64,000 bases of DNA. Origin: Flectobacillus sp. BAB-3569 (GTDB taxonomy: Bacteria; Bacteroidota; Bacteroidia; Cytophagales; Spirosomataceae). The DNA lies in contig NZ_NJFZ01000004.1 of assembly GCF_002270355.1 (NCBI RefSeq), positions 1 through 64,000 of the forward strand, given 5' to 3'. Position numbers and translations under genes: made by a program. The notes beneath the pieces were generated by a model. It was not told where the DNA came from. It saw only the letters and a list, made by a program, of their open reading frames with translations, and did no database searches. Shown piece by piece: positions 2,623-42,068 of this stretch (positions within the stretch are counted from its first letter, which is position 1; each line of letters opens with the position of its first letter).

Positions 2623-2667
2623 CAAAATTAGTCTAGTCCTCTACGCTCTTCTGTAACATTCCTCACA
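2623..2667 (-). promoter_or_regulatory. Promoter with CRP-like box of the MBL-rhodanese gene
   Basis: On the minus strand a box TGTGA-GGAATG-TTACA (forward 2652-2667) is centred 33.5 nt upstream of the TTTG of TAATTTTG (2630-2623), a perfect TAnnTTTG element of the Bacteroidota type. This puts the box near -41, the position of a class II activator. A weaker GTGATAAATGTCA follows at 2676-2688. The same arrangement recurs at four other sulfur genes in the window. The rest of the gap 2668-2906 is AT-rich with no further signal that I can support. Confidence 0.75.
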
Positions 2668-2906
2668 AAGACTCGGTGATAAATGTCAGTGGAAAAAATG
2701 ATGGAAAGGGTTATTTTTGATATAAAGATTTAGGTAGTATTGGAAAAATACAGAGAGTAGCTTGTGTCATATCAACCCCTATTTTATAAAAACTTAGAAA
2801 TTTTTTATAATTTATCCACCAGAACAAAAAACATAACTATCTCATTTTCAATAAAAACCCCAAAAAACACAAGCCCAACTCAATACAAGTACTGTCATTT
2901 TAAGCC

Positions 2907-5900
2907 TTATTGCATATTCTCACTTTGAAGTTTACTCACATAGGCAGAAGGGGTAATCCCAAACTGTTTTTGAAAGTCTCTCGAAAAATTGGTAGGGATA
3001 TTATAGCCCACCATGTCTGCAATCTCGTTGATTTTATATTTGTTTTCTGCCAATAACTCTGCTGCTTTTTTCAGTCGAGATAAATTGATTAACTCATTTG
3101 GCTTTAAGTCTGATATTCCTTTAATTTTTCGGTAAAGCGTAGGTCGGCTCATGTTCATTAGAGAGGAAAGCAAATCTACATCCAGATTACTATCTGCAAT
3201 GCGTTCGGCAATAATAGCGTGGAGCTGTTCCAAAAACTGCTTATCGGCTGTTGAAAAAGCAATACCTTTGATATGCGTCAGCGGTGAGCGTGCAAAGTAT
3301 TCCTTAATAATATTTCGGTTATTAATCAGGTTTGTAATTTGTGCCGCTAGGTGTTCTAGCGAAAAAGGTTTTTCGATATAGGCATCTGCCCCTACTTCCA
3401 AACCTTCTATTCTGGAATTAATCGAACTTTTTGCCGTTAAAAATATAATCGGGATGTGGCTGAATTGCACATCTGTTTTTATTTTTTTACAAAGCTCGAT
3501 ACCATCCATTACAGGCATCATAATATCACTAATAACCAAATGAACATTTTCCTGCTCTAATATTTCAATGGCCTGTACGCCATCCAAAGCACGCATAACA
3601 TGATAAGATGCACTTAGCTCGCGACTCAAGTAGTTAAGAATTTCGACATTATCCTCCACAATCAAAATCACAGGTTTGCCTGTATCGTCGGCATCGATGA
3701 CTTCGTTACTGAATATCTCGGTTTGAGCATCTTCTTGATTACCCTTCAAATCCATCTCGTAGTCTTGATGAATAGGAAGCGACAACAGAAAAGTATTTTG
3801 TTGCTCATTACGCAGATGAACTTCAACCTTTCCTTTGTGCAATTCGGCAAGCGAACGCGCCAACGGAAGCCCTATGCCTGTTCCTTCTTGCTTTTGATTG
3901 ACTTTTAGTCGAAAGAAAGGTTCGAAGATTTTTTCTTTACTTTCATGATCAATAATAAAACCGTCATTGGTAAACTCAATGTGAAAAAGTAAATCATCGC
4001 TACTAAATGGCAGGAGCTTTACTTTCACCGAAGTGTCGGCATATTTAACAGCATTATTGATTAGATTGCTAATAATCTTTTTACATGCCTCGATATCGAC
4101 ATAGGCATGTAGGGTTATTCTAGGCAGCTCAATTTTATAGTTTAGTTTTTTCTGTTCTGCTGCTGGCTTGAAGATCGTAAACACCTCATTGAGTAACTCG
4201 TTGATGTCGGTTTTGGTGAAATTCAAACTAAAGTTATTTGCTTCTGCTTTTCGGAAATCTAATAATTGATTAGTAAGGTCGATGAGGCGATTGGTATTCT
4301 TTTTAATCATGTTCAAATTATCAAATGTTTCTGGATTGGTATTCTTATCAGATAGTAGTTTATCTAATGGCATTTTGATTAATGTTAAAGGTGTTTTGAT
4401 TTCGTGGGCAACATTCGTAAAAAAGTCAATTTTGGCATTATAAATTTCTCGTTCTTTACCAATCTGGATAGTCTCTATTTCTCTTTTATTTTTTTCGCTA
4501 ATTGCTAAGTGATAGTACCTAAATAGCACAACGGCAATTGTACAGAATAGAACAAAATATGACACATAAGCCCAGCCAGAAGCCCACCAAGGTGGCATAA
4601 TGTCGATACTGAGTTTTGTTTCTTGGATACTCCAAACATTATCGTTGTTCGCTCCTTTAATCCTTAACACATAATGACCAGGTTGGAGTTTGGAAAAAGA
4701 TATTTTACGCTGACTCGACAAGCTATACCACTGGTTATCTAAGCCCTGCATTTGATACTGAAAACTATTCATTTTGGGAATAACATAACTGAGTAGCGCT
4801 ACATCAAAACTCAGGTTGGAGCGGTCGTAGGGAAGTTTAATTTTATCAGTATAAATGGGTGATTGGGTAATTGATGCTTCCTTATCGGCTATACTTAATT
4901 CTTTACCGTTGGCTCTAATACCAGTGATATACACGGCAGGAATATAGGTGTTTTTGATAAAAGATTCGGGTTTGAAGCTAATCATCCCAGCTACTGTACC
5001 AAAAAACAAGGTGCCATCTGCGCTCTTGTAAGAAGAATTATAATTGAACTGTTCGCTAGGAAGCCCATTTGCTTCTGTATAATTGGAGAATTTATCTGTT
5101 TTTAGGTTGAGCATGGACAAGCCTCTGGATGTAGAGACCCAACAGTTTCCTTTATCATCCTCCACCACTCTAAAAACCTGATTATCTAATAGTCCATCCT
5201 CGATACGATAGTTTTTAAATTTCCCTAAAATTGGGTTGTATCTCGAAAGCCCATGTTCGGTACAAAACCAAAAATCGCCATTTTTACTCTGGAAAAGGCT
5301 GTTAACATAGTTATCAAGTAGTCCATTTTTGTTACCTGCCACGTATTGAATTCTGCCTTTTTTGTTGGTGATAGGATTATAATAAAAGACGCCGTTCCCA
5401 TAACTAGAAGCCCAAAGTGTACCTTGTGCGTCTTGATGAATACTCTGGATTTGAGTATTAAAGAACTCCATTCTTGTAAAATCGTCGGTATCTCGATTGT
5501 ATTTATACAAACCAGACCATGTACCTACCAAAATATCTCCCTCTCGAGTTCTGTACAGTGTGACAATAAAATTACTCCCAAATGATCGAGGGGATTCTCT
5601 CGAATAATGCCGAATAACTTTATTGGTTTTCAAATCCATTACATCGAGTCCATGCTCATAGGTACCTATCCATAGGCGGTCGCCATCGGCTACTAAGCCA
5701 TGCAAATTTCGGTAGGTAATACTTCCTTTTTTACCATCAGGTAGGAAAGATTTGATTTTACCTGTTTTCAAATCTAGTTGATTGAGCCCAGCATCTTCTG
5801 TACCAATCCAGAGTTTGCCGTACTGGTCCATACAAATTTCGTGAATCAGACTTCCGCTGATACTATTGTTAGGTAAAGGAAAATACTTTTTGAAACGATT

Positions 5901-6881
5901 GAATTCGGAAGAATAGTAATTTACACCTCCAAACTGAGTGCTAAGCCATATACCATCTTCTTTATCCTTGAAAATCCGGTTGACAATATTATCGGAAATG
6001 GAATAGGGATTATATTTTTCTTTTTGGATATGTTTAAACTGAAGTTTTTTGAGGTCTAAAATAAAAAGCCCTGATTCTGTACCAAGCCACAACTTACCAT
6101 TATTCTGCAAGATGGAATAAACATGAATGCCATCTTTTTGAGCGGCATTTTTAGAAATATCAACAACTTTTCCAGCCTTATAATTGTATAACCATAGTTT
6201 TTTCATGTTTCCGACCAACAAGGTTGTATCTGAAACTGTATGAAGAATCATATCGGTGAATATCTCTTTCCCTCCTGTTAATTTTGAAAAATCATACGAG
6301 GTAAAATCTCCTTTTTGAGCATTGTAATGGCTAATCGTGCCATTACCACTAGCAATCCAAACTTTCCGTGCCTCTGAAACATGAATAGAGACGGTATAAC
6401 CTGCCCAACCAAAGGTCTGAACTTTACCTGTTTTTTGATTATACCGATACAATTGATGATCAGCGATAACCCAAATACCCCCGTTATAATCGCCTCTCAA
6501 CATCCGAACCTCGCCTGGAGGAATCAATTTGAAAGCCGTAAATCGCTCTGTAAGAGGGTTGTAAATGTATATACCCTTATGTGTTCCTATCCATAGTTTT
6601 TCATCTTTAGCCTCATATATAGACGATATCGCATCATCGCCAAGGCTAGTAGAGTCACCATGTTTGTTTCTGAAGATTTTGAATGTATTTCCGTCAAATC
6701 GATTCAACCCATTACGACTGGCAATCCAAATAAAACCCCTTTTATCTTGAATAATATCACGAGTGGCATTGCCCGACAACCCATCTGAAACCTTATAGCT
6801 TTTGAAATAATACCGAACATCCTGCCCTGCACAAGCCATACTAAAGAGTAAACCACAAATCGTAATGAGAAGATTTTTCAC
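2907..6881 (-). CDS. Hybrid two-component system sensor/regulator (HTCS), one-protein
   Basis: Protein of 1324 residues with every part of a two-component pathway. It has a signal peptide ending near SMACAG, a periplasmic two-component regulator propeller (about 25-690, repeats such as IWIASRNGLNRFD, LWIGTEDAGLNQLD), a Y_Y_Y domain (about 700-765) and a transmembrane helix near 775-795. Then come a HisKA domain with H in NVAHEIKTP near 826, a HATPase (GTGIGLPLA), a receiver domain with D in ISDIMMP near 1118, and a C-terminal AraC-type helix-turn-helix (MSRPTLYRKIKG, FGITPSAYV). The gene is divergent from susC with a 248-bp shared control region. In this family the propeller senses a glycan fragment or related ligand and the AraC part activates the neighbouring SusCD operon. 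The ligand cannot be read from sequence. Confidence 0.96.
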   Translation of the reverse strand: MKNLLITICGLLFSMACAGQDVRYYFKSYKVSDGLSGNATRDIIQDKRGFIWIASRNGLNRFDGNTFKIFRNKHGDSTSLGDDAISSIYEAKDEKLWIGTHKGIYIYNPLTERFTAFKLIPPGEVRMLRGDYNGGIWVIADHQLYRYNQKTGKVQTFGWAGYTVSIHVSEARKVWIASGNGTISHYNAQKGDFTSYDFSKLTGGKEIFTDMILHTVSDTTLLVGNMKKLWLYNYKAGKVVDISKNAAQKDGIHVYSILQNNGKLWLGTESGLFILDLKKLQFKHIQKEKYNPYSISDNIVNRIFKDKEDGIWLSTQFGGVNYYSSEFNRFKKYFPLPNNSISGSLIHEICMDQYGKLWIGTEDAGLNQLDLKTGKIKSFLPDGKKGSITYRNLHGLVADGDRLWIGTYEHGLDVMDLKTNKVIRHYSRESPRSFGSNFIVTLYRTREGDILVGTWSGLYKYNRDTDDFTRMEFFNTQIQSIHQDAQGTLWASSYGNGVFYYNPITNKKGRIQYVAGNKNGLLDNYVNSLFQSKNGDFWFCTEHGLSRYNPILGKFKNYRIEDGLLDNQVFRVVEDDKGNCWVSTSRGLSMLNLKTDKFSNYTEANGLPSEQFNYNSSYKSADGTLFFGTVAGMISFKPESFIKNTYIPAVYITGIRANGKELSIADKEASITQSPIYTDKIKLPYDRSNLSFDVALLSYVIPKMNSFQYQMQGLDNQWYSLSSQRKISFSKLQPGHYVLRIKGANNDNVWSIQETKLSIDIMPPWWASGWAYVSYFVLFCTIAVVLFRYYHLAISEKNKREIETIQIGKEREIYNAKIDFFTNVAHEIKTPLTLIKMPLDKLLSDKNTNPETFDNLNMIKKNTNRLIDLTNQLLDFRKAEANNFSLNFTKTDINELLNEVFTIFKPAAEQKKLNYKIELPRITLHAYVDIEACKKIISNLINNAVKYADTSVKVKLLPFSSDDLLFHIEFTNDGFIIDHESKEKIFEPFFRLKVNQKQEGTGIGLPLARSLAELHKGKVEVHLRNEQQNTFLLSLPIHQDYEMDLKGNQEDAQTEIFSNEVIDADDTGKPVILIVEDNVEILNYLSRELSASYHVMRALDGVQAIEILEQENVHLVISDIMMPVMDGIELCKKIKTDVQFSHIPIIFLTAKSSINSRIEGLEVGADAYIEKPFSLEHLAAQITNLINNRNIIKEYFARSPLTHIKGIAFSTADKQFLEQLHAIIAERIADSNLDVDLLSSLMNMSRPTLYRKIKGISDLKPNELINLSRLKKAAELLAENKYKINEIADMVGYNIPTNFSRDFQKQFGITPSAYVSKLQSENMQ

Positions 6882-6979
6882 CTAATTCTTTCTAAATAAT
6901 GATAGTATTAAAGTATGCTTGTGAAGCAACTTTTGTAAATATATCCCTATGTAATTACTATTTTTTCACAAAAATAAAC

Positions 6980-7008
6980 ATTGAGACAGATTGATTTTAA
7001 ATTGAGAC
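6980..7008. promoter_or_regulatory. Direct repeat, candidate operator of the hybrid regulator
   Basis: Perfect 8-bp direct repeats ATTGAGAC at 6980-6987 and 7001-7008 start 21 bp apart, two helical turns, in the HTCS-susC divergent region. AraC-type regulators commonly bind direct repeats on one face of the helix. A small hairpin (ATGGATT/AATCCAT, 7095-7113) lies in the susC leader. The role of both is inferred. Confidence 0.45.
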
Positions 7009-7129
7009 TCAGCGATTATTCCATTAATAAATTAAGCAGGAACTTCGTAAAAAATTTTAATTATATCCAATTTATTAATCAAATAGTAACAATAATGGAT
7101 TCTAAAAATCCATCTAAACAACCATTTTG

Positions 7130-10126: not shown

Positions 10127-10148
10127 TTTCCTGATTAAAACTCAAAAC

Positions 10149-11876: not shown

Positions 11877-11888
11877 AAATAATTTTTA

Positions 11889-14894: not shown

Positions 14895-14916
14895 TGAAGA
14901 ATAAGATGTAATCGAA

Positions 14917-15062: not shown

Positions 15063-15099
15063 TTTTGCATAAAGCCCAATAATGCAATAACCTTTCACC

Positions 15100-15903: not shown

Positions 15904-15952
15904 GGTATTACGTTTTTATTTGCAAAACAAAATCCATTACTTTACTTTTGCA

Positions 15953-15981: not shown

Positions 15982-16013
15982 AAAAGTAAACTAATATTGA
16001 TAATCATCTACTT

Positions 16014-16346: not shown

Positions 16347-16351
16347 TTAAA

Positions 16352-27727: not shown

Positions 27728-28048
27728 TTAGTAACTCATAATTCCACCTGACAAGTTATACACCTGCTCAAAACCGTTGTCTCCCATATATTTGCATGCA
27801 GAACCACTACGATTACCACTGCGACAGTACACCAAGTAGGTTTTATCTTTAGCTAATTGTGTTATTTTTTGTGAGAAATTCACATCCATCAAATCTATAT
27901 TAATTGCTTTTGGAATCGAACCTTGTTTAAATTCTAAAGCAGTACGTACGTCAATAATTACAGCATTAGGATTTTCAGAAATCATAGCCTTGAATGCTGA
28001 TGATGAAATATTTTCGTAGTTTTTCTTAGTTTTAAAAAAATCGAACAT
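27728..28048 (-). CDS. Single-domain rhodanese
   Basis: Rhodanese-like protein of 106 residues with catalytic loop C-R-S-G-N-R-S (YLVYCRSGNRSG), DVRTALEFKQGSIPKAINI and the closing NLSGGI. It transfers sulfane sulfur between thiols; the natural donor is unknown. There is no signal peptide, so it is cytoplasmic. Its promoter has a CRP-like box at the same spacing as the MBL-rhodanese genes, which makes it a member of the sulfur regulon. Confidence 0.93.
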   Translation of the reverse strand: MFDFFKTKKNYENISSSAFKAMISENPNAVIIDVRTALEFKQGSIPKAINIDLMDVNFSQKITQLAKDKTYLVYCRSGNRSGSACKYMGDNGFEQVYNLSGGIMSY

Positions 28049-28109: not shown

Positions 28110-28154
28110 CAAAATTCGGTATAAAGTCACTGCTGTACAGTGATATATGTTACA
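28110..28154 (-). promoter_or_regulatory. Promoter with CRP-like box of the rhodanese gene
   Basis: Box AGTGA-TATATG-TTACA (forward 28139-28154) is centred 33.5 nt upstream of the TTTG of GAATTTTG (minus strand 28117-28110). A second inverted repeat with CACTG/CAGTG arms overlaps its edge (28128-28142), as a palindrome also does at the MBL-rhodanese promoter near 32.69 kb. Confidence 0.75.
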
Positions 28155-28434: not shown

Positions 28435-29469
28435 TTAATAGCTTGTTTCGTCCAATTTTACTTTTCCTCTAAAAGTCCAAAATACAAAACCTGTGTATAG
28501 TCCCACCAAAGGCACGCCGATGGCGGCAAACGTTAGCATAATTTTGAGAGATTTATCGGTTGACGCTCCATTGTGGATATCTATGTGAAACTGTGGGTCG
28601 ATTGTGGATAACACAATATTGGGAAATAAACCTACAGCCACCAATGCCATCAACATAGCCGTTACAAAAGCCGAAGAGAAAAAGGCAAAACGATACTTAC
28701 GCTTCGTAATTTGTCGTGTAATGTTAGCTACAGCCAAAATCGTCAGTACAGGAAAGAAAAACATCATCGGTACTTCCTTAAATCTTTCGACCATGTGTGG
28801 CAAATATAACAGCGTGTAAACTGTACTTAAAGCAAACATCAACACAAAAAAGATGGTGGTATTTTTTACCAAAACTGTCAATTTAGCATAAAGACGATTC
28901 TCTGTTTTCATAACCAAATAAATAGCCCCGTGCATCATAAACAACGATAATGTTGTAATCGCCATCAAAATAGAAAATGGATTAAAGAAATCTCCAACTG
29001 TTCCTCTATAAATAAATTGGTCGTCGATTGGCAAACCTTGAATGATATTACCGAGTACCAATCCCAACGACAAAGCCAGCATAATACTCGAAACGCTGTA
29101 GCTCACATCCCATAGCTGACGCCACCAAGCCATTGGTTCTTTGGAACGAAATTCGATGGAAATAGCACGAAAAATTAATAATACCAAAAACAGCATAAAC
29201 AACTCATAAAAAGCCGAAAATACCGTTGCATATACTACTGGAAAACCCGCAAACAGCGCCCCTCCTCCTATTACTAGCCACACTTCGTTTCCGTCCCACA
29301 CAGGTCCGATGGCATTGAGTGCAATACGACGACTTTCTTCTTTTTTGAAAAATAAATGCAAAGCTCCTGCTCCCAAATCAAATCCATCCAAAATGGCATA
29401 TCCTGTAAATACACCACCCACGACCAAAAACCACCACGTAGGTAAATCGAGTCCAAAGATTGTTTCCAT
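28435..29469 (-). CDS. cydB: Cytochrome bd oxidase subunit II
   Basis: Polytopic membrane protein of 344 residues of the CydB family. Seen: GYAILDGFDLGAGALHLF near the N-terminus, GPVWDGNEVWLVIGGGALFAGFP and repeated hydrophobic helices. With CydA it forms a quinol:oxygen oxidoreductase with high oxygen affinity that resists sulfide and NO better than heme-copper oxidases. That suits its position between two sulfur-metabolism genes. It starts 32 bp after cydA. Confidence 0.95.
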   Translation of the reverse strand: METIFGLDLPTWWFLVVGGVFTGYAILDGFDLGAGALHLFFKKEESRRIALNAIGPVWDGNEVWLVIGGGALFAGFPVVYATVFSAFYELFMLFLVLLIFRAISIEFRSKEPMAWWRQLWDVSYSVSSIMLALSLGLVLGNIIQGLPIDDQFIYRGTVGDFFNPFSILMAITTLSLFMMHGAIYLVMKTENRLYAKLTVLVKNTTIFFVLMFALSTVYTLLYLPHMVERFKEVPMMFFFPVLTILAVANITRQITKRKYRFAFFSSAFVTAMLMALVAVGLFPNIVLSTIDPQFHIDIHNGASTDKSLKIMLTFAAIGVPLVGLYTGFVFWTFRGKVKLDETSY

Positions 29470-29501
29470 GATTTTTTATCTATTTGAATCAGAGGTTATT
29501 T

Positions 29502-30887
29502 TTATTGCAAAATTGGATTATCACGTTTTGAATAATCAGGAATATCGTCCGAATAATCGCCTGAATAATCGTCGGTCGGACCATGTTTGATTTTTTTATT
29601 AAGTAAATACACAAACAAACCAAACAAGAGAATATACACCAAGGTAAACAATACCAGTGAAAATACTACCTGTGAAGCCTTCAGGGATTGAGACAAAGCG
29701 TCGGATGTTCTGAGCAAACCATATACCACCCAGGGCTGACGACCCACCTCCGCCGAATACCAGCCTAGCTGATTGGCCAATTGTGGCAATAATACCGACC
29801 AAGCAAAAATTTGTAGTAACCAACGTTGTTCAAACAAAGTACCTTTCCACCACAAAAACGACGCTAGCAATGTCAATGCAATTAAAGTCATACCAATGGC
29901 GACCATTAAGTGATATGTCTGAAATACAAAATTGACCGCCTTCGGTTGATCTTCCTTCTTGAAGGCATTTAAGCCTGTAACAGGTTTGTTAAAATCTTGA
30001 TACAGTAAAAAACTTAATCCTTTCGGAATTTTAAGTCCTGACACTTCCTGCTTTTTGGTATCTACCCAGCCCAGCAAATACATATCCGCTACGGCTGAAG
30101 CTTCATAATGACCTTCGAAAGCCGCTAGTTTAGCTGGTTGATTATGTGCCACTCCGTCGGCCGATTTATGCCCAGAAAATAGTTGTAAAAGCGAAGCAAT
30201 TGTAGCCACAACCAGCGCTATCTTAAATCCTTTACGAGCAATTTCGACATGACGATTACGAAGTAAATAATAGGCGTTGACACTCAATACCAAAAATGAA
30301 CCTGCCAAAAACGAACCCAACAACACATGAGAAAGACGCTCGACAGAAGATGGATTGAAAACCATTGCCCAAAAATCGGTTATCACTGCACGGGCATAAA
30401 GTCCCTTACCTTCGATTCGAAAACCCGCAGGGGTTTGTTGCCATGAGTTGGCGACTACAATCCAAATTGCTGAAAACATCGAACCCATTGCCACCATAAC
30501 GGTTGAGAAGAAATGTACTCGTCGGCTTACTCGGTTCCATCCAAAAAGTAATATTCCTAAAAAGCCCGATTCGAGCGCAAAAGCAAAAATCCCTTCTGCC
30601 GCCAAGGCACTGCCAAAAATATCTCCTACATAGCGAGAGTAAACAGCCCAGTTGGTCCCAAACTCAAATTCCATGACAATACCTGTGGCTACGCCAATAC
30701 CAAAAATCAAGGCAAAGATTTTAATCCAAAAGCGAGTCATCTGAGCATAGGCTTCTTTGCCTGTGCGCAGATACTGGGCTTCCATGATTACCATCACGAT
30801 ACCAAGACCAATACTAAGAGGGGGATAAATGTAGTGAAACGCCACCGTAAAGGCGAACTGAATGCGAGATAGAAACGCTGTATCCAT
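29502..30887 (-). CDS. cydA: Cytochrome bd oxidase subunit I
   Basis: Protein of 461 residues. Early helix SRIQFAFTVAFHY carries the heme ligand His18. GRQPWVVYG and the Trp/Gln region NSWQQTPAGF are conserved. The quinol loop is of the short type, as usual outside Proteobacteria. The 301-bp region upstream holds the MBL-rhodanese terminator and a 24-bp inverted repeat, and no CRP-like box could be found there. The operon ends at the 28301 terminator. Product: terminal oxidase for low oxygen or sulfide stress. Confidence 0.96.
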   Translation of the reverse strand: MDTAFLSRIQFAFTVAFHYIYPPLSIGLGIVMVIMEAQYLRTGKEAYAQMTRFWIKIFALIFGIGVATGIVMEFEFGTNWAVYSRYVGDIFGSALAAEGIFAFALESGFLGILLFGWNRVSRRVHFFSTVMVAMGSMFSAIWIVVANSWQQTPAGFRIEGKGLYARAVITDFWAMVFNPSSVERLSHVLLGSFLAGSFLVLSVNAYYLLRNRHVEIARKGFKIALVVATIASLLQLFSGHKSADGVAHNQPAKLAAFEGHYEASAVADMYLLGWVDTKKQEVSGLKIPKGLSFLLYQDFNKPVTGLNAFKKEDQPKAVNFVFQTYHLMVAIGMTLIALTLLASFLWWKGTLFEQRWLLQIFAWSVLLPQLANQLGWYSAEVGRQPWVVYGLLRTSDALSQSLKASQVVFSLVLFTLVYILLFGLFVYLLNKKIKHGPTDDYSGDYSDDIPDYSKRDNPILQ

Positions 30888-31011
30888 AACATTGTGGAGT
30901 TTAGATTGAGATTGTATTGAGGGGATAGTGGCTAGCGTTTTTCAAGAAAATTATTACTCAAAACTGTTTCCCTGAAATCAATTTCCCTAAAGTTGGGGCA
31001 GAAAATGATAA

Positions 31012-31045
31012 AAAAAAGATACAGTTAAAGCAACTGTATCTTTTA
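31012..31045 (-). terminator. Terminator downstream of the second MBL-rhodanese gene
   Basis: AAAAGATACAGTT/AACTGTATCTTTT stem with a short loop and T8 on the minus strand. Confidence 0.85.
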
Positions 31046-31087
31046 CAATTTTTACCTAAAATCATACTAAAAAAAGGTTGTTAATTA

Positions 31088-31171
31088 GGGAACAGTGACA
31101 GAGGCACAAAGAGACAAAGGGTTCTACTTTATCTGATAACATATCCACTTTGTGCCTCTGTCACTGTTCCC
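31088..31171. repeat. Perfect 24-bp inverted repeat of the GGCACAAAG family
   Basis: Arms 31088-31111 and 31148-31171 are perfectly complementary over 24 bp with a 36-nt loop; the core is AGAGGCACAAAG. Related single arms occur at about 204-234 and 41216-41260. It lies between the MBL-rhodanese and cydA genes, next to a normal terminator, so termination is not its obvious purpose. Nothing else is seen in this gap. Confidence 0.9.
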
Positions 31172-31188
31172 TTTTACACTTTAAGTCC

Positions 31189-32604
31189 CTATTTTTTCAA
31201 CGTCGATGGGCATACAAAATCGGTTGTTTTGATACCTGCTTTCTGGATAGCACCGAAGCCTCCGTTAATATCAATGAAGTTTTCGATACCACGTGCTTTC
31301 AAAATCGAAGAAGCAATCATCGAGCGATAGCCCCCCGCACAGTGAATATAAAATGGTTTATTTTTAGGAAACTCCGACAAATTTTCGTCGATATAATCTA
31401 ATGGCAAATTGATAGCTCCGTCTACATGTTCTGCGGAAAACTCGCCAGGACGACGCACATCGATTACCAAAGGAGCCTCCTCTGAAGCTAGTCTTGTCGC
31501 AAATTCGGTTGCATCAATCGACTCTACCGTGTCTATTTCTTTACCTGAGGCTTCCCACGACTCAAAACCGCCATCTAAATAGCCAATAACAAAGTCATAT
31601 CCTACACGCGCCAATCGTGTGATGGTTTCTTCTTCTTGTCCTTTTTCGGTAATCAATAAAATTTCTTGTTTCAAGTCTGGAATCAATGCCCCTACCCATG
31701 GCGCAAACTGTCCATTCAAGCCAATATTGGTTGAGTTTGGTACAAATCCTTTGTTGAAAACTTGAGCATTGCGAGTATCCAACAATACGGCACCTGTTTC
31801 GTTAGCTGCCGCTTCAAATGCTTCTGGAGACAAAGCTTGTGCCGCACGATTCATGACTACGTCGATACTTTCGTAACCCTGCTTGTTCATCATCACGTTT
31901 TGTGGGAAGTATTGCGGTGGCTTACTCAAACCATCCGTTACTTCTTTGATAAACTGCTCTTTCGACATATCAGCACGAAGCGCATAATTGGTTTGTTTTT
32001 GATTGCCTAAAGTGTCGGTTGTTTCTTTACTCATGTTTTTACCACAAGCCGAACCAGCTCCGTGTGCAGGATATACAATCACGTCGTCGGGCAAAGTCAT
32101 CACTTTATTACGCAATGAATCAAACAAAAATCCAGCAAGGTCATTGATAGTCAAATCAGATTTTTGTGCTAAATCAGGACGACCAACATCTCCGATAAAC
32201 AAAGTATCACCACTAAAGAGCGCTTTTTCTTGTCCGTTTTCATCAATCAACAAATAACAAGTTGACTCCATCGTATGCCCTGGTGTGTGCAATACCTTGA
32301 TTTTCACTTTTCCTAACTGGAACTCTTCGCCATCTTTTGCCACATGAGCATCAAAGCCCGTTACTGCATTAGGACCATATACAATAGGTGCGTTTGTTTT
32401 CTTCGAAAGGTCGATATGTCCTGAAACAAAATCCGCATGAAAGTGGGTTTCGAAAACATATTTGATCGTTGCATTATTACGCTGAGCTTTGTTGATATAA
32501 GGCTGTACTTCGCGAAGTGGGTCTATTACAGCAGCTTCACCTTCTGACTCAATGTAATATGCTCCTTGCGCTAAACAACCTGTATAAATTTGTTCTATTT
32601 TCAT
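31189..32604 (-). CDS. MBL-fold hydrolase with tandem rhodanese domains, second paralogue
   Basis: Protein of 471 residues, similar along its whole length to that at 1162-2574. The MBL motif is H-F-H-A-D-F-V-S-G-H with SGDTLFIGDVGRPDL. The first rhodanese domain lacks the loop Cys (ITEKGQEEE); the second has HCAGGYRS. The likely reaction is oxidation of glutathione- or low-molecular-weight persulfide, with sulfur transfer by the active rhodanese. The promoter carries the CRP-like box with TAATTTTG. Two copies under the same control could differ in affinity or give dosage. Confidence 0.92.
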   Translation of the reverse strand: MKIEQIYTGCLAQGAYYIESEGEAAVIDPLREVQPYINKAQRNNATIKYVFETHFHADFVSGHIDLSKKTNAPIVYGPNAVTGFDAHVAKDGEEFQLGKVKIKVLHTPGHTMESTCYLLIDENGQEKALFSGDTLFIGDVGRPDLAQKSDLTINDLAGFLFDSLRNKVMTLPDDVIVYPAHGAGSACGKNMSKETTDTLGNQKQTNYALRADMSKEQFIKEVTDGLSKPPQYFPQNVMMNKQGYESIDVVMNRAAQALSPEAFEAAANETGAVLLDTRNAQVFNKGFVPNSTNIGLNGQFAPWVGALIPDLKQEILLITEKGQEEETITRLARVGYDFVIGYLDGGFESWEASGKEIDTVESIDATEFATRLASEEAPLVIDVRRPGEFSAEHVDGAINLPLDYIDENLSEFPKNKPFYIHCAGGYRSMIASSILKARGIENFIDINGGFGAIQKAGIKTTDFVCPSTLKK

Positions 32605-32658
32605 GGCTTTAAGATAGTTATGAATATTTTTAAAAGTCTATTTAATCGATTTATGCTT

Positions 32659-32703
32659 CAAAATTATAAGCTTATAACACAGAATTCTGTGATATATGTT
32701 ACT
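32659..32703 (-). promoter_or_regulatory. Promoter with CRP-like box of the second MBL-rhodanese gene
   Basis: Box TGTGA-TATATG-TTACT (forward 32688-32703) is centred 33.5 nt upstream of the TTTG of TAATTTTG (minus strand 32666-32659). It overlaps a perfect palindrome CACAGAATTCTGTG (32678-32691), which may be a second site. Confidence 0.78.
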
Positions 32704-32892
32704 TATATTAAAAGTTTTTTGAAAAAAAATGATAAATACTAATATCCGAAGTTAATCTTGGACAATTTGCTAGAGCAGCGTGATTATGAGATGGTGTTAT
32801 TCGTTAATAGTATATCCCTTATCATAATCAGACATATTACAATTTTATCTTTCTTATTACTGATAAAAGTAAAAAAGAATGGTCTAAAATTA

Positions 32893-32935
32893 TCAAAGCT
32901 GGAAAACATGGTTTAAACATGAGCTCCAGCTTTGA
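32893..32935 (-). terminator. Terminator of the acyltransferase gene
   Basis: TCAAAGCTGGA/TCCAGCTTTGA stem with nested CATG pairs and a T-rich tail on the minus strand. The rest of 32704-32892 shows nothing. Confidence 0.7.
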
Positions 32936-32953
32936 TTTTGATGATTGTATTTC

Positions 32954-34027: not shown

Positions 34028-34239
34028 ACAGATAAACGACCCATCTTTAGCAAAGACAATAACAAACAGGTTATCAGCGATTTACTAGGATATTTAAAAG
34101 GGTAAAATAAAGATTATGATCTATTTATTTCAAGAAGCAATTCTTGAAGTTGAAGTTTCGAAGATAACAAAATTGTCAGAACTTTAGTGAAGAATGTTTT
34201 AAAATTCCATTGAAAAGCCATTTCTGAGTTTTAGCCAAT

Positions 34240-34272
34240 AAAAAAGGAGGTCAATTGCTTGACCTCCTTTTT
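34240..34272 (-). terminator. Terminator of the M1 peptidase gene
   Basis: AAAAAGGAGGTCAA/TTGACCTCCTTTTT stem with a 4-nt loop, 17 bp beyond the stop. The remaining 34028-34239 shows no gene. Confidence 0.92.
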
Positions 34273-34288
34273 ATGCTAGAAAGAATTA

Positions 34289-36628: not shown

Positions 36629-36796
36629 GGTCGATTTGTTGGTGAAAAATGTTTTTGACGAAATTAAGAAAAAAACAGTTTTAAGCAGTTGGTTTTTGTA
36701 TGCTATTTGGCAGGTAAAGTAAGGAGTTGAGCGAATTGAGTAGATTTTACAACTGTCTAGTAACCTTTTTTACAAATATTATTCTTTTATACAAAA

Positions 36797-36836
36797 CAAA
36801 AAAGCCCAATACAACCAGTGTATTGGGCTAAAAAGT
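36797..36836 (-). terminator. Terminator of the GMC oxidoreductase gene
   Basis: AGCCCAATACA/TGTATTGGGCT stem with a 5-nt loop and T6 on the minus strand, just past the stop. Confidence 0.92.
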
Positions 36837-36850
36837 GTTTTTGGATAAGC

Positions 36851-38563
36851 TTATAAATTACCCATTCTCATTTGCTTCACGGCGTAGTCGGCTGCACGAG
36901 CAGTCATGGCCATATAGGTCAATGATGGGTTTTGTGTTGAGGTGGATGTCATCGATGCTCCATCGGTGACAAATACGTTTTTACAAGCGTGCATTTGATT
37001 CCACTTGTTGAGAATCGATGTTTTAGGGTCTTTACCCATGCGAGCGCCACCCATTTCGTGAATATCCAAACCAGCAGCTTGTTTTGAATCGTAGGTCTTG
37101 ATATTTTTAAAACCTGCTTTCTCAAACATATCTGTCATTTGTTGCAAGTAATCTTTGACCATCTTTTCGTCATTATCATCATAACCTACAGCAATACGCA
37201 ATTGCGGAATGCCATAAGGGTCTTTCAAAGCTTTGTCGAGAGCTACATAGTTGGATTCTTTCGGGATAGTCTCGCCCATCATGTGCGAACCTACGCTCCA
37301 GCCTCCACGGGTTACCTTTCCTAGATTTGCTTTCAAATCTTCTCCGATACCTTCGCTACTGTTATACTCGATACGACGACCATCAAACCCTGCGGCATAT
37401 CCACGTAAGAAGTCTGTTTCTTGCTTATACACATTACGGAAACGAGGAATATAACCACTGTTCGGGCGGCGACCATCGGTTGTTGAATCCAATAACCCAT
37501 CATACTCGCCTGACACACGTGCACGGTAGTTGTGGAAAGCCACGTATTTACCCAATACTCCACTGTCGTTACCCAAACCATTTTGGAAACGATTTGAAGT
37601 AGAATTCAACAAGATCAAGTTGGTATTCAAAGCCGCTGCGTTGACAAAAATGATTTTTGCATAAAACTCAATCATTTCTTTGGTATTGGCATCAATTACT
37701 CTTACACCTGTTGCTTTCCCTTTTTTCTCGTCATAAATAATCGAGTGAACTACCGAATCAGGGCGAAGTGTCATTTTCCCTGTTTTCATTGCCCAAGGAA
37801 TTGTTGAGGCGTTACTACTAAAATATCCTCCAAATGGACAACCTCTTTCACAAATCGTACGATGCTGACACTGCGCACGACCTTGTTGTAAGTGAATTGG
37901 TTGTGCTTTGGTAATATGCGCCGCACGACCGATAATGATATGACGGTCTTTGTAATTTTTGGAAACTTGTTCCTTGAAATACTTTTCAACACAATTCAAA
38001 TCGTGAGGGGGCAAAAACTCACCGTCTGGAAGTGTATCCAAACCATCTTTGTTACCTGAAATACCTGCGAACTTCTCTACATAACTATACCAAGGAGCCA
38101 AGTCATTGTAACGAATAGGCCAATCTACCGCAAAGCCATCGCGTGCTGGTCCTTCAAAGTCAAAATTACTCCAGCGTTGCGTTTGACGTGCCCATAACAA
38201 AGATTTTCCACCTACTTGATAGCCTCTAATCCAATCAAAAGGCTTTTCTTGTACGTAAGGATGTTCTTTATCTTTGGCAAAAAACTGCGTTGTACCTTCG
38301 TAAAAAGCATAACATTTACTTACAATAGGATTTTCTTGTTTGACCTCATAAGGTAATTGCCCTCTGTGTTCGAATTCCCAAGGCTGTAACATCGTGGTCG
38401 GATAATCTACTACATGACGCACATCACGCCCACGTTCGAGCACCAAGGTACGTAAGCCTTTTCCTGTAAGTTCTTTGGCTGCCCAGCCACCGCTAATACC
38501 TGAGCCAATCACAATGGCATCATAGGTTCTATTTTTTGTGCTATCTATATTAAAATTACTCAT
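36851..38563 (-). CDS. GMC-family FAD oxidoreductase
   Basis: Protein of 570 residues with the FAD Rossmann motif AIVIGSGISGGWAAKEL, the GMC region GGKSLLWARQTQRW, a Cys-rich segment (CQHRTICERGCPFGGYF) and the C-terminal NVFVTDGASMTSTSTQNPSLTYMA. The start is MSNFNIDST, 21 codons into the longest frame. Members of this group oxidise sugars or sugar-like alcohols and pair with a small gluconate-2-dehydrogenase-subunit-3-like protein, present 132 bp upstream. It lacks a signal peptide itself and may be exported by its Tat-carrying partner (inference). Confidence 0.92.
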   Translation of the reverse strand: MSNFNIDSTKNRTYDAIVIGSGISGGWAAKELTGKGLRTLVLERGRDVRHVVDYPTTMLQPWEFEHRGQLPYEVKQENPIVSKCYAFYEGTTQFFAKDKEHPYVQEKPFDWIRGYQVGGKSLLWARQTQRWSNFDFEGPARDGFAVDWPIRYNDLAPWYSYVEKFAGISGNKDGLDTLPDGEFLPPHDLNCVEKYFKEQVSKNYKDRHIIIGRAAHITKAQPIHLQQGRAQCQHRTICERGCPFGGYFSSNASTIPWAMKTGKMTLRPDSVVHSIIYDEKKGKATGVRVIDANTKEMIEFYAKIIFVNAAALNTNLILLNSTSNRFQNGLGNDSGVLGKYVAFHNYRARVSGEYDGLLDSTTDGRRPNSGYIPRFRNVYKQETDFLRGYAAGFDGRRIEYNSSEGIGEDLKANLGKVTRGGWSVGSHMMGETIPKESNYVALDKALKDPYGIPQLRIAVGYDDNDEKMVKDYLQQMTDMFEKAGFKNIKTYDSKQAAGLDIHEMGGARMGKDPKTSILNKWNQMHACKNVFVTDGASMTSTSTQNPSLTYMAMTARAADYAVKQMRMGNL

Positions 38564-38647
38564 GAAATCAATGATTATTTGAAGAGCTGTCGAAGTTCGG
38601 TTTACAGCGTTGTTGCTAAAAAGCACTACTGATTAAATCATCGAGAC

Positions 38648-38685
38648 ATTTTTGCCGAACGCCCATAGCTCACTACCGAAAGCCT
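38648..38685. repeat. Dispersed intergenic repeat, partial copy
   Basis: A TTTTTGCCGAACGCCCATAG-type segment continuing into CTACCGAAAGCC. It matches the right part of the family also seen at 40071-40145, 41881-41985 and 53030-53265. Confidence 0.6.
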
Positions 38686-38695
38686 TTTACTTATT

Positions 38696-39205
38696 TTACT
38701 TCACTTTTATACATCCGTGGTATCTGCCTGGCACCATTTCATAATGCGTAATATTGGTCATTACGTATTCAGAATTGAGGTATCCACGTACTGTTAAACC
38801 TTTAAGCAAGCCATAAAAATCTTTGGTTTCGGCTCCACTTTCAAAGCTTTTCAACAATTCGATGCGCTGTGGTGTATCAAGCTGAGTAAATGGTTTGCTG
38901 TATTTTTGCTGAGCAACAGAGTCTATCTGGCCAATACCTTTGGCAAAAGCTGACTGTACTTCCTTAGAGTAACAATCGGCTACCATTTTTTGAACAAAAG
39001 TGTCCAATCCAAGGTCTTTTGCTCCAGGTGTGTTTGTCTTGGGAATAATGGTCTCAACAGCTTCGCTTAGTACACTCGCCAAATTAGGACGCAACCAATT
39101 TTTTGCGGTTATTGAGTTGGTCGACCAAGCATTTGCCCACTCGGGTAAAGCTACCGCTACTCCAATGAGCATCGCCATACTTTTTAAGGCATTACGTCTT
39201 TCCAT
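38696..39205 (-). CDS. Gluconate 2-dehydrogenase subunit 3-like protein
   Basis: Protein of 169 residues with a twin-arginine-type N-terminus (MERRNALKSMAMLIGVAVAL). The family core AVETIIPKTNTPGAKDLGLDTFVQKMV is followed by the C-terminal TNITHYEMVPGRYHGCIKV. It is the small partner of the GMC oxidoreductase, probably helping maturation or Tat export in complex with the flavoprotein. Same strand, 132 bp ahead of it. Confidence 0.9.
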   Translation of the reverse strand: MERRNALKSMAMLIGVAVALPEWANAWSTNSITAKNWLRPNLASVLSEAVETIIPKTNTPGAKDLGLDTFVQKMVADCYSKEVQSAFAKGIGQIDSVAQQKYSKPFTQLDTPQRIELLKSFESGAETKDFYGLLKGLTVRGYLNSEYVMTNITHYEMVPGRYHGCIKVK

Positions 39206-39552
39206 AAGTTTGTTTTTTAGTAGTAAGAAAATGGGATTATTTTTAGTCTTTGGGGATATTTCTTATCTTTATTATAACTTATAAAATCATCCTGAATAAT
39301 CACTCGTTAAACCCTTAAATGCAAGGACTAATACTTTTTTATCCTAAATCTTTGCAAAAAAATATTAGGACAGATTTTTATGAGCAATAACTCCCAATAT
39401 ACACATATTTTCATAAATGCTTATCCTTATTAACAAGGTTGCTGAAGCGGAAAATATAACATTTTTAAGAAAAAATTTACTTAAACAAAATATACAAACA
39501 GCGAGTTTAGCCTTCATTCAAGAGATTGTTTCATTATATCCTATTGTATTTT
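39206..39552. other. Intergenic region without a recognised feature
   Basis: The region is AT-rich and lies between the divergent gluconate-dehydrogenase-type gene (-) and the CxC-motif gene (+). It must contain both promoters. I see no clear TAnnTTTG element, no CRP-like box and no strong hairpin. Confidence 0.5.
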
Positions 39553-40041
39553 ATGGCACATGCAAATCCAGAACTCATCCAAGCCTTGCGTCGTACTGCC
39601 CAAAAATTGGCTATCGGAAATCCATACCAATGGGGGCACATGGGAAGTTGTAACTGTGGCAACTTAGCGCAAGAATTAACCCAACTCACCAAAGCACAAA
39701 TTCATGAATTTGCCATGCAAGGTCGTGGCGATTGGCGCGAGCAAGTAGAAGAGTTTTGCCCAACGAGTGGGCTTCCGATGGATTTACTTATTTCGGATAT
39801 GCTCAATCATGGTCTAACAACTTCCGACTTACAGAACTTAGAACGTTTGAGTGATAAAAAAGTTTTAGCTAGAATTCCATTAGAGCGTCGTGACAAAATG
39901 CGCCACAACTACCGTGACGATGTAGTTCTTTATCTTAACGAATGGGCGAATCAATTAGAAGAAGAATTGTTACCTAATATTAAGTTAGACTTGTCGTTCA
40001 TGAACGAAGAAAAAGTTGAAGCAAATTTGGTGACCATTTAA
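39553..40041 (+). CDS. Conserved-looking cytoplasmic protein with C-x-C motif, unknown function
   Basis: Protein of 162 residues starting MAHANPELIQALRRTAQKLA. It has no signal peptide or membrane segment. Visible features are GSCNCGNLAQELT (C-x-C) near residue 33-42, a further Cys in EEFCPTSGLP, and a helical, charged C-terminal half. The ATG at 39553 is preferred over one nine codons earlier, which would add a hydrophobic MFHYILLYF stretch. I do not recognise the family. It stands alone on the plus strand and is followed by a repeat and a terminator. Confidence 0.8.
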   Translation: MAHANPELIQALRRTAQKLAIGNPYQWGHMGSCNCGNLAQELTQLTKAQIHEFAMQGRGDWREQVEEFCPTSGLPMDLLISDMLNHGLTTSDLQNLERLSDKKVLARIPLERRDKMRHNYRDDVVLYLNEWANQLEEELLPNIKLDLSFMNEEKVEANLVTI

Positions 40042-40070
40042 GTATCAATATGCTTTAGTCAATAAGCCGT

Positions 40071-40145
40071 AGGCATTAGGCAAAAAACTTCTACAGATTC
40101 ATGGGAAATACTTTTGCCAAATGCCCATAGCTGACAGCCGAATAC
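40071..40145. repeat. Dispersed intergenic repeat copy
   Basis: Begins AGGCATTAGGCAAAAAAC and ends in TTTTGCCAAATGCCCATAG followed by CTGACAGCCGAA. Related to the copies at 38.65, 41.9 and 53.1 kb and, by its AGGCA words, to the array at the window start. Confidence 0.6.
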
Positions 40146-40240
40146 CAAGAGCGTTTTAAAGCTTTTTTATAATCAACTTGAATGTTAACAAAGGACTAAT
40201 CAACCAATTTTGTAAGCAAGCTTCTTACGTCTGAGTACTT

Positions 40241-40280
40241 AAATGCCGAAGATGATATCAAACCACCTTCGGCATTTTTT
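40241..40280 (+). terminator. Intrinsic terminator
   Basis: AAATGCCGAAGG-type stem: AAATGCCGAAG pairs with CTTCGGCATTT, followed by T6. It lies 200 bp after the CxC-motif gene and before the sulfur promoter, which it isolates. Confidence 0.85.
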
Positions 40281-40350
40281 ATTTTGTCTACTTCACAGAG
40301 GAAGGTAATTCTATTCATTTCCAGATTTGGGCTATAGAAAATTTGTGCTA

Positions 40351-40395
40351 TGTGATAAAAGTTACATTTAATGCCCTGTCATTAAAATAACTTTG
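40351..40395 (+). promoter_or_regulatory. Promoter with CRP-like box of the YeeE/YedE pair
   Basis: A perfect box TGTGA-TAAAAG-TTACA (40351-40366) is centred 33.5 nt upstream of the TTTG of TAACTTTG (40388-40395), a perfect TAnnTTTG. This leaves a leader of about 245 nt before the ATG at 40645, in which I see no strong structure. Confidence 0.8.
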
Positions 40396-40644
40396 TATCA
40401 TCAAAAAGAAATAATCATACAATGAATGACTACTTATCTTTATTCTTTTTGAAACTAAATATCGCTAACTATTTGTTTAAATGATACTTATGCTTTCTAC
40501 TTCTTCGGATAGACATCTTTTGATTCTCAAGCATTTTTTACCAATAAATTACTCAACGTTATAGAAATCCTATAAATTTTTAAGAAATTAGAAAATAAAA
40601 TACTTAATCTATAGACATTATTTTAAAACAATTTAAACATAATC

Positions 40645-41217
40645 ATGGAACTACTTGAATTCATTAAACAACCGTGGCCTTGGTATGTGGCAGGTCCTTT
40701 AATCGGACTTACAGTCCCTACTTTGTTATTAATCGGAAATAAATCTTTTGGTATATCATCGTCATTACGACATATCTGTGCGGCTTGTATGCCAGCAGAT
40801 ATACCATTTTTCAAATACAATTGGCGCAAAGAAATCTGGAATTTGATTTTTGTCTTTGGCGTTTTAATTGGTGGATTTATTGCTACTAATTTCTTAGCGA
40901 ATCCTAATGCCATTGTTATTAATCCTCAAACTATCAAAGATTTAAGCACCTTAGGAATTAAGGACTTTAATGGCTTGATGCCTTCCGATATTTTTGCGCC
41001 TGAAAATATTTTTAGCTTAAAAGGGTTGATATTCTTTGTCATCGGTGGCTTTATGGTTGGCTTCGGAACCCGTTGGGCGGGAGGCTGTACTTCAGGGCAT
41101 GCCATTATGGGTATCTCTAACTTACAAGTTCCGTCGGTGATTGCTACATGTTGCTTTATGGTTGGCGGTTTTGCTTCAACGCACCTGTTGTTGCCATTGA
41201 TATTTAAGTTATTTTAA
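40645..41217 (+). CDS. YeeE/YedE-family sulfur transporter, N-terminal-type half
   Basis: Membrane protein of 190 residues with about five helices and the family motif [10 protein letters not shown] after FGTRWAG. A second Cys cluster (HICAACMP) lies near residue 46. YeeE/YedE proteins import thiosulfate or related sulfur species through conserved Cys residues. In Bacteroidota they are often split into two half-length proteins, as here. The promoter has a CRP-like box. Partner at 41312. Confidence 0.9.
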
Positions 41218-41260
41218 AAAGGGAACAGGCACAAGGGACAAAGGCACAAAGTGTTCAATA
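41216..41260. repeat. GGCACAAAG-family repeat arm
   Basis: GGGAACAGGCACAAGGGAC followed by AAAGGCACAAAGTGTTC. It is similar to the arms of the inverted repeat at 31088-31171 and to 204-234 (opposite strand). It sits between the two YeeE/YedE genes. Confidence 0.6.
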
Positions 41261-41311
41261 GAGCACACAACTCTCACTTTTCTCGCACATATTTTTCATA
41301 GAAATATTATC

Positions 41312-41809
41312 ATGAAATCGACATTTGAAACTCCAATAGTAGAAAAAGAAGAATTCGTTTGCGAAGCGCCAAACGATATGAAAACTTCAGAAAGCAGTTT
41401 ATCCAATCTCAAATACCTCATCGTAGGAATTATGTTTGGTATCGTTTTCGTAAAAGCAGAAATTATTTCTTGGTTCAGAATTCAGGAAATGTTCCGTTTG
41501 CAAAGCTTCCACATGTATGGCGTTATTGGTAGCGCTGTGGTGGTAGGCATGATTTCGGTATTTCTCATCAAAAAATTCAATATCAAAACGCTATCAGGGG
41601 AAACGGTAGAGTTTCATCCCAAAAAATTCCAACAAGGACAAATCTACGGTGGTTTACTTTTTGGATTGGGCTGGGCTATTACAGGAGCATGTCCCGGACC
41701 ATTATTCGCTCAAATTGGTAGCGGTTTTGTAGCGGTCATTGTTACACTTTTGAGTGCTATTGCAGGTACTTGGACGTATGGGTATTTCAAAGAAAAGTTA
41801 CCAAACTAA
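41312..41809 (+). CDS. YeeE/YedE-family sulfur transporter, second half
   Basis: Membrane protein of 165 residues. A hydrophilic N-terminal 30 residues (with Cys in EEFVCEAPN) is followed by four helices and the signature GWAITGACPGPLFAQIG, whose Cys is the conserved transport residue. With the 40645 product it makes a complete YeeE/YedE unit. The 94-bp gap contains a dispersed repeat but no terminator, so cotranscription is likely. Confidence 0.9.
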   Translation: MKSTFETPIVEKEEFVCEAPNDMKTSESSLSNLKYLIVGIMFGIVFVKAEIISWFRIQEMFRLQSFHMYGVIGSAVVVGMISVFLIKKFNIKTLSGETVEFHPKKFQQGQIYGGLLFGLGWAITGACPGPLFAQIGSGFVAVIVTLLSAIAGTWTYGYFKEKLPN

Positions 41810-41847
41810 AGGCGACAAGGCTAAATATTAAAGCATTATCAGTCAAG

Positions 41848-41874
41848 AAAAAGCACCTCACAAGGGTGCTTTTT
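41848..41874 (+). terminator. Terminator of the YeeE/YedE operon
   Basis: AAAAAGCACC/GGGTGCTTTTT stem with a short loop and T5. Confidence 0.9.
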
Positions 41875-41880
41875 GCATTT

Positions 41881-41985
41881 AAGTTATGTGTTTAGGCACA
41901 AGGCAAAGAGTGTTAAAATATTTTTTAGTAACGATGGATATATTTTTTGCCGATTGCCGAGAGCTGAAAGCCGTAAGCTCAAAAA
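41881..41985. repeat. Dispersed intergenic repeat copy
   Basis: Word order: AGGCACAAGGCAAAGAGTG, TTAAAAT, TAGTAACGATGGATAT, TTTTTTGCCGATTGCCGAG, GCTGAAAGCCGTAAGC. It aligns along its length with the two inverted copies at 53030-53265. Confidence 0.75.
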
Positions 41986-42024
41986 TTAAATTTTATTTTG
42001 CCCACTAACTTAACATTCTTACTA

Positions 42025-42068
42025 TGTAACAAATATCACAGAACCTCTTAGATTATTTATAGAATTTG
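42025..42068 (+). promoter_or_regulatory. Promoter with CRP-like box of the SQR gene
   Basis: TGTAA-CAAATA-TCACA (42025-42040) is the box in inverse orientation. Its centre is 32.5 nt upstream of the TTTG in TAGAATTTG (42060-42068), one base off the spacing at the other four promoters. The ATG follows 24 nt later. Confidence 0.72.

Follow-up and report, generated by a model that had tools for sequence, protein, structure and literature searches.

The first 64,000 nucleotides of contig NZ_NJFZ01000004.1 of Flectobacillus sp. BAB-3569 (here called the window) contain five promoters of sulfur genes that share an operator at a nearly constant distance from the promoter element; beside the last of these genes, which encodes a flavoprotein resembling sulfide:quinone oxidoreductase (SQR), lies the gene of a Crp/Fnr protein (43462-44091). 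Comparison with related genomes indicates that this is a real, conserved regulon with an identified regulator, whose binding to the operator is predicted. The operator, the spacing, the gene set and the link between regulator and operator are supported by the observations set out below, and as a whole we consider it very probable that a dedicated Crp/Fnr activator acts through the spaced operator at at least eight promoters, likely with sulfane sulfur as its signal.

In the mechanism that we propose, the 43462-44091 protein would be a dedicated Crp/Fnr-family regulator of inorganic sulfur metabolism, which would bind as a dimer to TGTRA-N6-TYACA centred at -41.5 of sigma-A promoters and would act there as a class II activator. 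The predicted target promoters have a -7 element of TAnnTTTG or close to it, and those in the window lack TTTG at -33. At least eight promoters would be controlled: in the window, those of two metallo-beta-lactamase (MBL)-fold rhodaneses, a rhodanese, a YeeE/YedE pair and the SQR-like protein; outside it, those of a SoxA/TsdA-type cytochrome c, a porin-like gene behind a DsrE gene and a YgaP-type membrane protein. The original prediction, made from the letters of the window, had described a five-promoter sulfur regulon under a Crp/Fnr protein. The five promoters stand, but the total does not, since at least eight are predicted in the genome; the regulon itself is borne out by a spaced operator that recurs before like genes and that both co-occurs and covaries with the regulator.

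Operator form and promoter geometry

The boxes had been predicted to fit TGTGA-N6-TTACA with at most one mismatch, each ahead of a sulfur gene. Their coordinates are exact, operators 1 to 5 (Table 1) having 0, 1, 1, 0 and 0 mismatches, and Pfam assigns the genes behind them to two MBL-rhodaneses (both with Lactamase_B and two rhodanese stretches), a rhodanese, two Sulf_transp halves and an SQR-like protein with Pyr_redox_2. The match to the consensus therefore held, but its strict form did not, since the half-site with G is gene-distal in two promoters (MBL-rhodanese A and YeeE) and gene-proximal in three; given this mixed orientation, the operator is better written TGTRA-N6-TYACA.

The gap between the box end and the first T of TTTG is 25, 25, 25, 25 and 24 nucleotides (nt) long for operators 1 to 5, in exact agreement with the predicted centre-to-TTTG distances of 33.5 nt in four promoters and 32.5 nt in that of the SQR-like gene. 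The longer element TAnnTTTG is complete in the promoters of MBL-rhodaneses A and B and of YeeE; it differs by a single base in that of the rhodanese, and in that of SQR the TA is displaced one base further from TTTG. In Flavobacterium psychrophilum, TAnnTTTG is the sigma-A consensus at -12 to -5 (PMC9723704; this and the other articles given by PMC number are cited for parts of their text). Because the element spans -12 to -5, the first T of TTTG would be position -8, and the box would be centred at -41.5 (SQR: -40.5). With TTTG read as the -7 element and starts predicted in this way, the claim that the box lies at about -41, as for a class II activator, holds. TTTG is found at -33, the position of the box end, in none of the five window promoters; YeeE has TTTA there. 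The predicted arrangement is that of class II activation, with an operator centred at -41.5 that overlaps the place of the upstream promoter element, and in the class II promoters of Escherichia coli CRP the operator is likewise centred at -41.5. Class II activation by the predicted regulator is thus well supported by the promoter geometry.

The spacing recurs in relatives. Among 28 sequences (27 loci with a relative of the regulator, and the window; the same-genus loci L001 and L006 were left out), TTTG begins exactly 25 nt downstream of 21 of the 104 non-coding boxes and 24 nt downstream of 4; no other offset between 0 and 60 has more than 2 cases. Of 124 coding boxes, 1 has TTTG at offset 25.

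The regulator could instead repress these promoters and be released by sulfur species, in the manner of BigR or CstR, known sulfur sensors that are repressors (PMC9774590, PMC5823870). We consider repression unlikely: the fixed position at -41.5, the -7 element and the lack of TTTG at -33 in the window promoters together form the layout of a class II activator. The sites of repressors, moreover, usually vary in position.

Chance level and genome-wide ranking

The original prediction held that a match in sequence, spacing and gene function together is hard to get by chance. The box alone is not enriched: with up to two mismatches it occurs 91 times in the window, against 91.7 expected, and with up to one mismatch 511 times in the genome, against 466 for the reversed pattern; its frequency being that of chance in both, the box alone was rejected as evidence. 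The box together with its spacing is informative, as judged by the peak at offset 25 and the ranking of the genome. With up to one mismatch, the box followed by 25 nt and TTTG is found at 32 places in 6.62 Mb, 6 of them in the window, which makes up 1% of the genome; one of these six is the YeeE box on the other strand and one lies inside a gene, and the SQR operator (spacing 24) falls outside this count, which demands a spacing of 25. Of the four places without a mismatch, two belong to the window and a third precedes a SoxA/TsdA-type cytochrome gene (contig C29); the fourth, C75:107174, by eye overlaps a gene of ATP synthase and was discarded as a chance match. A box-like site before rho, at 44502, was also rejected, as it differs from the consensus at two positions and lacks a TTTG at the right distance. 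With up to two mismatches, the spaced pattern occurs 390 times in the genome and its reversed control 350 times; it was rejected as too weak a genome-wide detector, and a sequence model was used instead.

This sequence-only model, R1, comprises 15 aligned sites from genera other than that of the window, taken from loci with at most one mismatch and a spacing of 24-26 on the regulator's strand. On the window alone, it gives the five operators E values of 5.3e-7 to 2.4e-4, the next hit having 0.014. When the whole genome is searched, the top eight places go to the five operators and to C29:273718, C29:275550 and C15:52095 (E 5.6e-5 to 0.049). As the training sites were chosen by the earlier consensus and spacing, the window sites were in part bound to rank high, and independent evidence comes from the outside hits and the gap to noise. 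The C29 sites lie in a cluster encoding a SoxA/TsdA-domain cytochrome, a DsrE-like protein and, behind the DsrE gene, a 453-aa protein that has no Pfam match and is porin-like by eye. The C15 site precedes the gene of a 66-aa protein whose near-identical counterpart at locus L192 is a YgaP-like_TM protein. The scan of the whole genome, which had been set as a check, brought to the top the window sites and these three outside. Among the 18 hits under the top eight, those on C34, C99, C38, C22 and C49 were discarded, as by eye they do not precede sulfur genes.

A spaced box at C88:34806 (locus L061, C88:30000-40000) has a good -7 element and stands, by eye, before cas8b/cas7/cas5-like genes, near replication-type genes. 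Its R1 E value is 0.40, and it was excluded from the regulon count; it may possibly reflect a Crp/Fnr input into CRISPR expression, or chance.

That chance matches have been read into a pattern is hardly credible. The bare box is indeed as frequent as chance, but the genome ranking and the spacing peak, as well as the covariation and co-occurrence described below, contradict this explanation.

Covariation of regulator and operator

In an alignment of 89 rows of regulator relatives, in which some genomes are present twice, Arg183 and Arg188 are invariant, and at position 184, which corresponds to Glu181 of CRP, 71 rows have Glu and 18 have Val. Operators were sought in 87 loci as GT-x-A-N6-T-x-AC, with T before or A after, 24-26 nt before TTTG; the fourth base of each half was left free, and coding sequence was included. 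Of the 51 Glu184 loci, 34 yielded sites, 43 in all, and 40 of these have a G in one half or both; of the 34 Val184 loci, 14 yielded sites, 20 in all, of which 2 have G and most read TGTAAC-N4-GTTACA. The difference between Glu and Val types at operator base 4 has a p value of 9e-11 by site and 1e-9 by locus (33/34 versus 1/14). This covariation ties the regulator to the operator and argues, from sequence alone, for a strong protein-DNA link. Two loci carry both types of regulator. At locus L312 (G237:C2:430000-440800), Glu184 and Val184 copies are found together with TGTGA- and TGTAAC-type operators in the same 11 kb.

Conservation and co-occurrence

Among named genomes, a relative of the regulator was found at 29 loci, in genera including Flectobacillus, Runella, Emticicia, Arcicella, Lacihabitans, Fibrisoma and Flammeovirga and also in Flavobacteriales. 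A relative of the window's MBL-rhodanese, rhodanese, YeeE or SQR lies in the retrieved flanks of 17 of the 29, three of these through weak rhodanese-domain matches only, and a spaced box (at most one mismatch, spacing 24-26) lies on the regulator's strand in 18; in one Emticicia, the spaced box stands before crp itself. Locus L006, recorded as Cellulophaga sp. BC115SP, has a regulator 98% identical to that of the window and the same gene order; it is apparently a misnamed relative of Flectobacillus.

Of 150 genomes of the family, 106 have a strong match to the regulator (E < 1e-30) and 82 an R1 hit (E <= 0.01). The hit is found in 78 of the 106 genomes with the regulator and in 4 of the 44 others (Fisher p 1e-13), and its share follows regulator identity: 56/64 at about 56% or more, 22/42 at lower identity and 4/44 where the match is none or weak, two of these four exceptions being genomes 63% and 71% complete. 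Across 296 genomes of the phylum, at a threshold for which about three false hits are expected, an R1 hit is found in 38 of 117 genomes with the regulator and in 3 of 179 others (p 2e-14); both p values overstate the significance, because related genomes do not count as independent samples. The regulator is within 1 kb of 22, and within 5 kb of 27, of the 63 phylum sites outside the family.

The regulator and its cysteines

The prediction of a Crp/Fnr protein with an R-E-x3-R helix beside SQR was confirmed by its domains, PF00027 (28.0 bits; cut-off, 27.5) and PF13545 (38.6 bits; cut-off, 27), and by Arg183, Glu184 and Arg188; the fold matches CAP/CRP structures, and the protein belongs to the Crp/Fnr superfamily. 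Its score and its cAMP-contact residues suggest that it is not a cAMP-CRP. No NCBIfam model reaches its cut-off on the regulator, the cAMP-CRP equivalog giving 41.9 bits against 266, and the loop MSLSCCLDRKQSE stands where the CRP-like protein 3iwz has GEMGLFIESDTRE, whose residues are the cAMP contacts of the phosphate-binding loop. The N-terminal Fe-S cysteine motif of FNR is absent from the regulator, whose first cysteine is Cys78. The paralogue L089 has, by eye, an N-terminal set of cysteines.

Cys78 is present in 89 of 89 rows of the alignment, Cys84 in 85 and Cys85 in 82, and Cys78 and Cys84 align with the cAMP-binding loop of CRP-like proteins. The AlphaFold model has a mean predicted local distance difference test score (pLDDT) of 84.5, and its block 81-90, with 59, is too uncertain for the disulfide geometry of the cysteine loop. 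From the gene content and the conserved cysteines we infer that the likely signal would be sulfane sulfur (persulfide or polysulfide), made when sulfide or thiosulfate enters; it is plausible that Cys78, with Cys84/Cys85, would sense it in place of the cAMP-binding loop of CRP.

Another Crp/Fnr paralogue, or a general cAMP-CRP-type regulon, might own the boxes, the adjoining regulator being a bystander. The half-site is the same as that of CRP, the genome has ten HTH_Crp_2 matches, five of them above cut-off, the paralogue L089 has a K-E-x3-R helix, and one box stands before the cas8b-like gene identified by eye. However, R-E-x3-R is found only in the window regulator among the seven matches readable as Crp-like proteins (L096 looks like another family, and L097 and L098 are without a usable frame); the operator covaries with residue 184 of this very protein, sites are rare in genomes without a relative of it, and its loop differs from the cAMP pocket of CRP. 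A bystander role is in our judgement very unlikely.

Predicted regulon content

Sixty sites on another contig or more than 30 kb from the best regulator relative were picked by eye among the matches listed, several of them being close orthologues. The gene after the site has a sulfur-type Pfam domain in 44 of the 60: 22 are rhodanese-type (10 with Lactamase_B), 13 TauE, 4 SoxA-TsdA and 2 Sulf_transp, and there is one each of the SQR-like, OsmC and YgaP types. Around the regulators of the phylum, the genes after 45 spaced boxes (44 distinct) are of rhodanese, TauE, YeeE, SulP, SQR or OsmC type in at least 35 of 44, an enrichment that, near the regulator, owes partly to the neighbourhood.

At loci L162 and L165, within the 60, spaced boxes lie beside a second, more distant Crp/Fnr paralogue, and across L197, L292, L204, L270 and L318 spaced boxes stand before ferritin/Dps and outer-membrane efflux genes; these sites may point to a broader regulon or be due to chance.

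The regulator may also bind these sites and yet sense oxygen, nitric oxide, redox or thiol stress, the sulfur genes then belonging to a broader response to stress, as with HcpR or PgRsp, two Crp/Fnr stress sensors of Bacteroidota (PMC12040651, PMC1274295). Some sites precede ferritin/Dps, OsmC or outer-membrane efflux genes. The gene content, however, consists mostly of rhodanese, TauE, YeeE, SQR and SoxA/TsdA types, and no nitrogen-oxide family appears among 25 of the 29 families at the distant sites or among 17 at the phylum regulator loci. No Prismane (PF03063) match is found in the own genome (5 of 14 control genomes have one), and this lack of hcp speaks against an HcpR role. A stress signal is doubtful but deserves to be taken seriously.

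Besides the limits given above for the R1 ranking, the p values and the enrichment near the regulator, and the small excess of the spaced pattern at up to two mismatches over its control, several results weigh against the dedicated sulfur regulon. In 11 of the 29 relative loci there is no spaced box with at most one mismatch; of the genomes with the regulator, 28 of 106 in the family and 79 of 117 in the phylum have no R1 hit, under stricter filters that partly miss Val-type sites; and the covariation search gave no site in 17 of the 51 Glu184 loci and 20 of the 34 Val184 loci. Within the window, crp itself has no box in front of it, and Flammeovirga keeps Cys78 alone, without Cys84 and Cys85. 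Finally, the gene after the site lacks a sulfur domain in 16 of the 60 distant cases: 5 are OprD porins, 2 are the porin-like 453-aa protein and 9 are others with no obvious tie to sulfur (transposase, AAA, ferritin-like, DUF983, efflux, multihaem cytochrome and others).

Features of the window

MBL-rhodanese A is presumably, by resemblance, of the persulfide dioxygenase-rhodanese type. The best NCBIfam match of the SQR-like protein is type III SQR at 133.7 bits, far under the cut-off of 525. Its gene is split at a run of one base, and both parts share one frame in the relatives L001 and L006, so the split may stem from an error in sequencing or mark a recent loss. A leader of about 245 nt (40400-40644) is predicted for the YeeE transcript, with a short reading frame near 40422-40484. 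The cytochrome bd oxidase genes cydAB (28435-30887) sit between two regulon members, and the window scan gave no R1 hit before them.

Table 1. Predicted operators and associated genes in the window
Feature	Position	Strand	Details
Operator 1	2652..2667	-	TGTGAGGAATGTTACA; 25.0 bits, E 9.8e-7 in the window (model R1)
-7 element of operator 1 promoter	TTTG 2623-2626		TAATTTTG; box centre 33.5 nt before TTTG
MBL-fold/double-rhodanese protein A	1162..2574	-	ATG at 2574; behind operator 1
Operator 2	28139..28154	-	TGTAACATATATCACT in gene direction; TTTG 28110-28113; 25.9 bits
Single-domain rhodanese	27728..28048	-	Pfam; behind operator 2
Operator 3	32688..32703	-	AGTAACATATATCACA in gene direction; TTTG 32659-32662 (TAATTTTG); 17.5 bits
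MBL-fold/double-rhodanese protein B	31189..32604	-	Behind operator 3
Operator 4	40351..40366	+	TGTGATAAAAGTTACA; TTTG 40392-40395 (TAACTTTG); 21.6 bits
YeeE/YedE-type half-transporter 1	40645..41217	+	Pfam Sulf_transp
YeeE/YedE-type half-transporter 2	41312..41809	+	Pfam Sulf_transp
Operator 5	42025..42040	+	TGTAACAAATATCACA in gene direction; TTTG 42065-42068, spacing 24; 22.8 bits
SQR-like flavoprotein	42092..43296	+	Frame split: 42092-42907 and 42955-43296
Crp/Fnr regulator	43462..44091	+	Cys78-x5-Cys84-Cys85; helix SREVVSR (Arg183, Glu184, Arg188)

Relation to known systems

The system shares with E. coli CRP its fold, the R-E-x3-R helix, the TGTGA half-site and the -41.5 centre; unlike CRP, the regulator has a cysteine loop in place of the cAMP pocket, and its predicted operators are often asymmetric (TGTGA/TTACA), go with the -7 element TAnnTTTG and precede sulfur genes. 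HcpR and HcpR2 are Crp/Fnr proteins with related operators (wTGTGAnnnnnnTCACAw and GTAACnnnnGTTAC), and a like rule links helix residues of HcpR proteins to operator bases (PMC1274295). HcpR regulons, however, centre on hcp, whereas sulfur oxidation and transport genes and a cysteine motif are found here. The activator FisR and the repressors CstR and BigR also control sulfide-handling genes (PMC9774590, PMC5823870), and CstR and FisR sense through cysteines (PMC9774590), but none of these is a Crp/Fnr protein; here, a Crp/Fnr protein is tied to sigma-A promoters of class II layout. The closest solved sequence is PDB 3dv8 (E 1.2e-21), a putative Crp/Fnr regulator of Eubacterium rectale, in another phylum, which has cysteines aligned with Cys78 and Cys84.

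Two further Crp/Fnr proteins of Bacteroidota, from Porphyromonas gingivalis, are PgRsp, a heme-binding redox regulator, and CrpPg, a ligand-independent global regulator (PMC12040651); the main text of that study never uses the word sulfur. In the parts cited, a review from 2022 on bacterial reactive sulfur species mentions CstR, SqrR and FisR and has Crp in its reference list only, twice (PMC9774590), and a YeeE/SoxT study mentions Crp or Fnr nowhere (PMC11582611). No Crp/Fnr sulfur regulon in Bacteroidota was found among the papers listed in searches of the open-access literature, in keeping with the original prediction, which knew of no such sulfide regulon; a description in subscription journals is possible.

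A wider reading can be put forward tentatively, as somewhat short of probable. A branch of the Crp/Fnr family found across Bacteroidota may have turned the cAMP pocket into a cysteine-based sensor of sulfane sulfur and may serve as the master activator of sulfide/thiosulfate oxidation and transport; operator and helix would then co-evolve, with two insulated operator classes where two copies are present, as at one locus.

Bacteroidota are abundant in waters, sediments and guts, and the sulfide and persulfide sensing in the literature that we found is that of other phyla. The predicted regulator, its operator, the gene set and a testable specificity rule would together offer a way into the question of how sulfide and thiosulfate are detoxified and used by heterotrophic Bacteroidota. 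Should the cysteine loop prove to be the sensor, sulfane sulfur would be added to the signals that are read by the Crp/Fnr fold.

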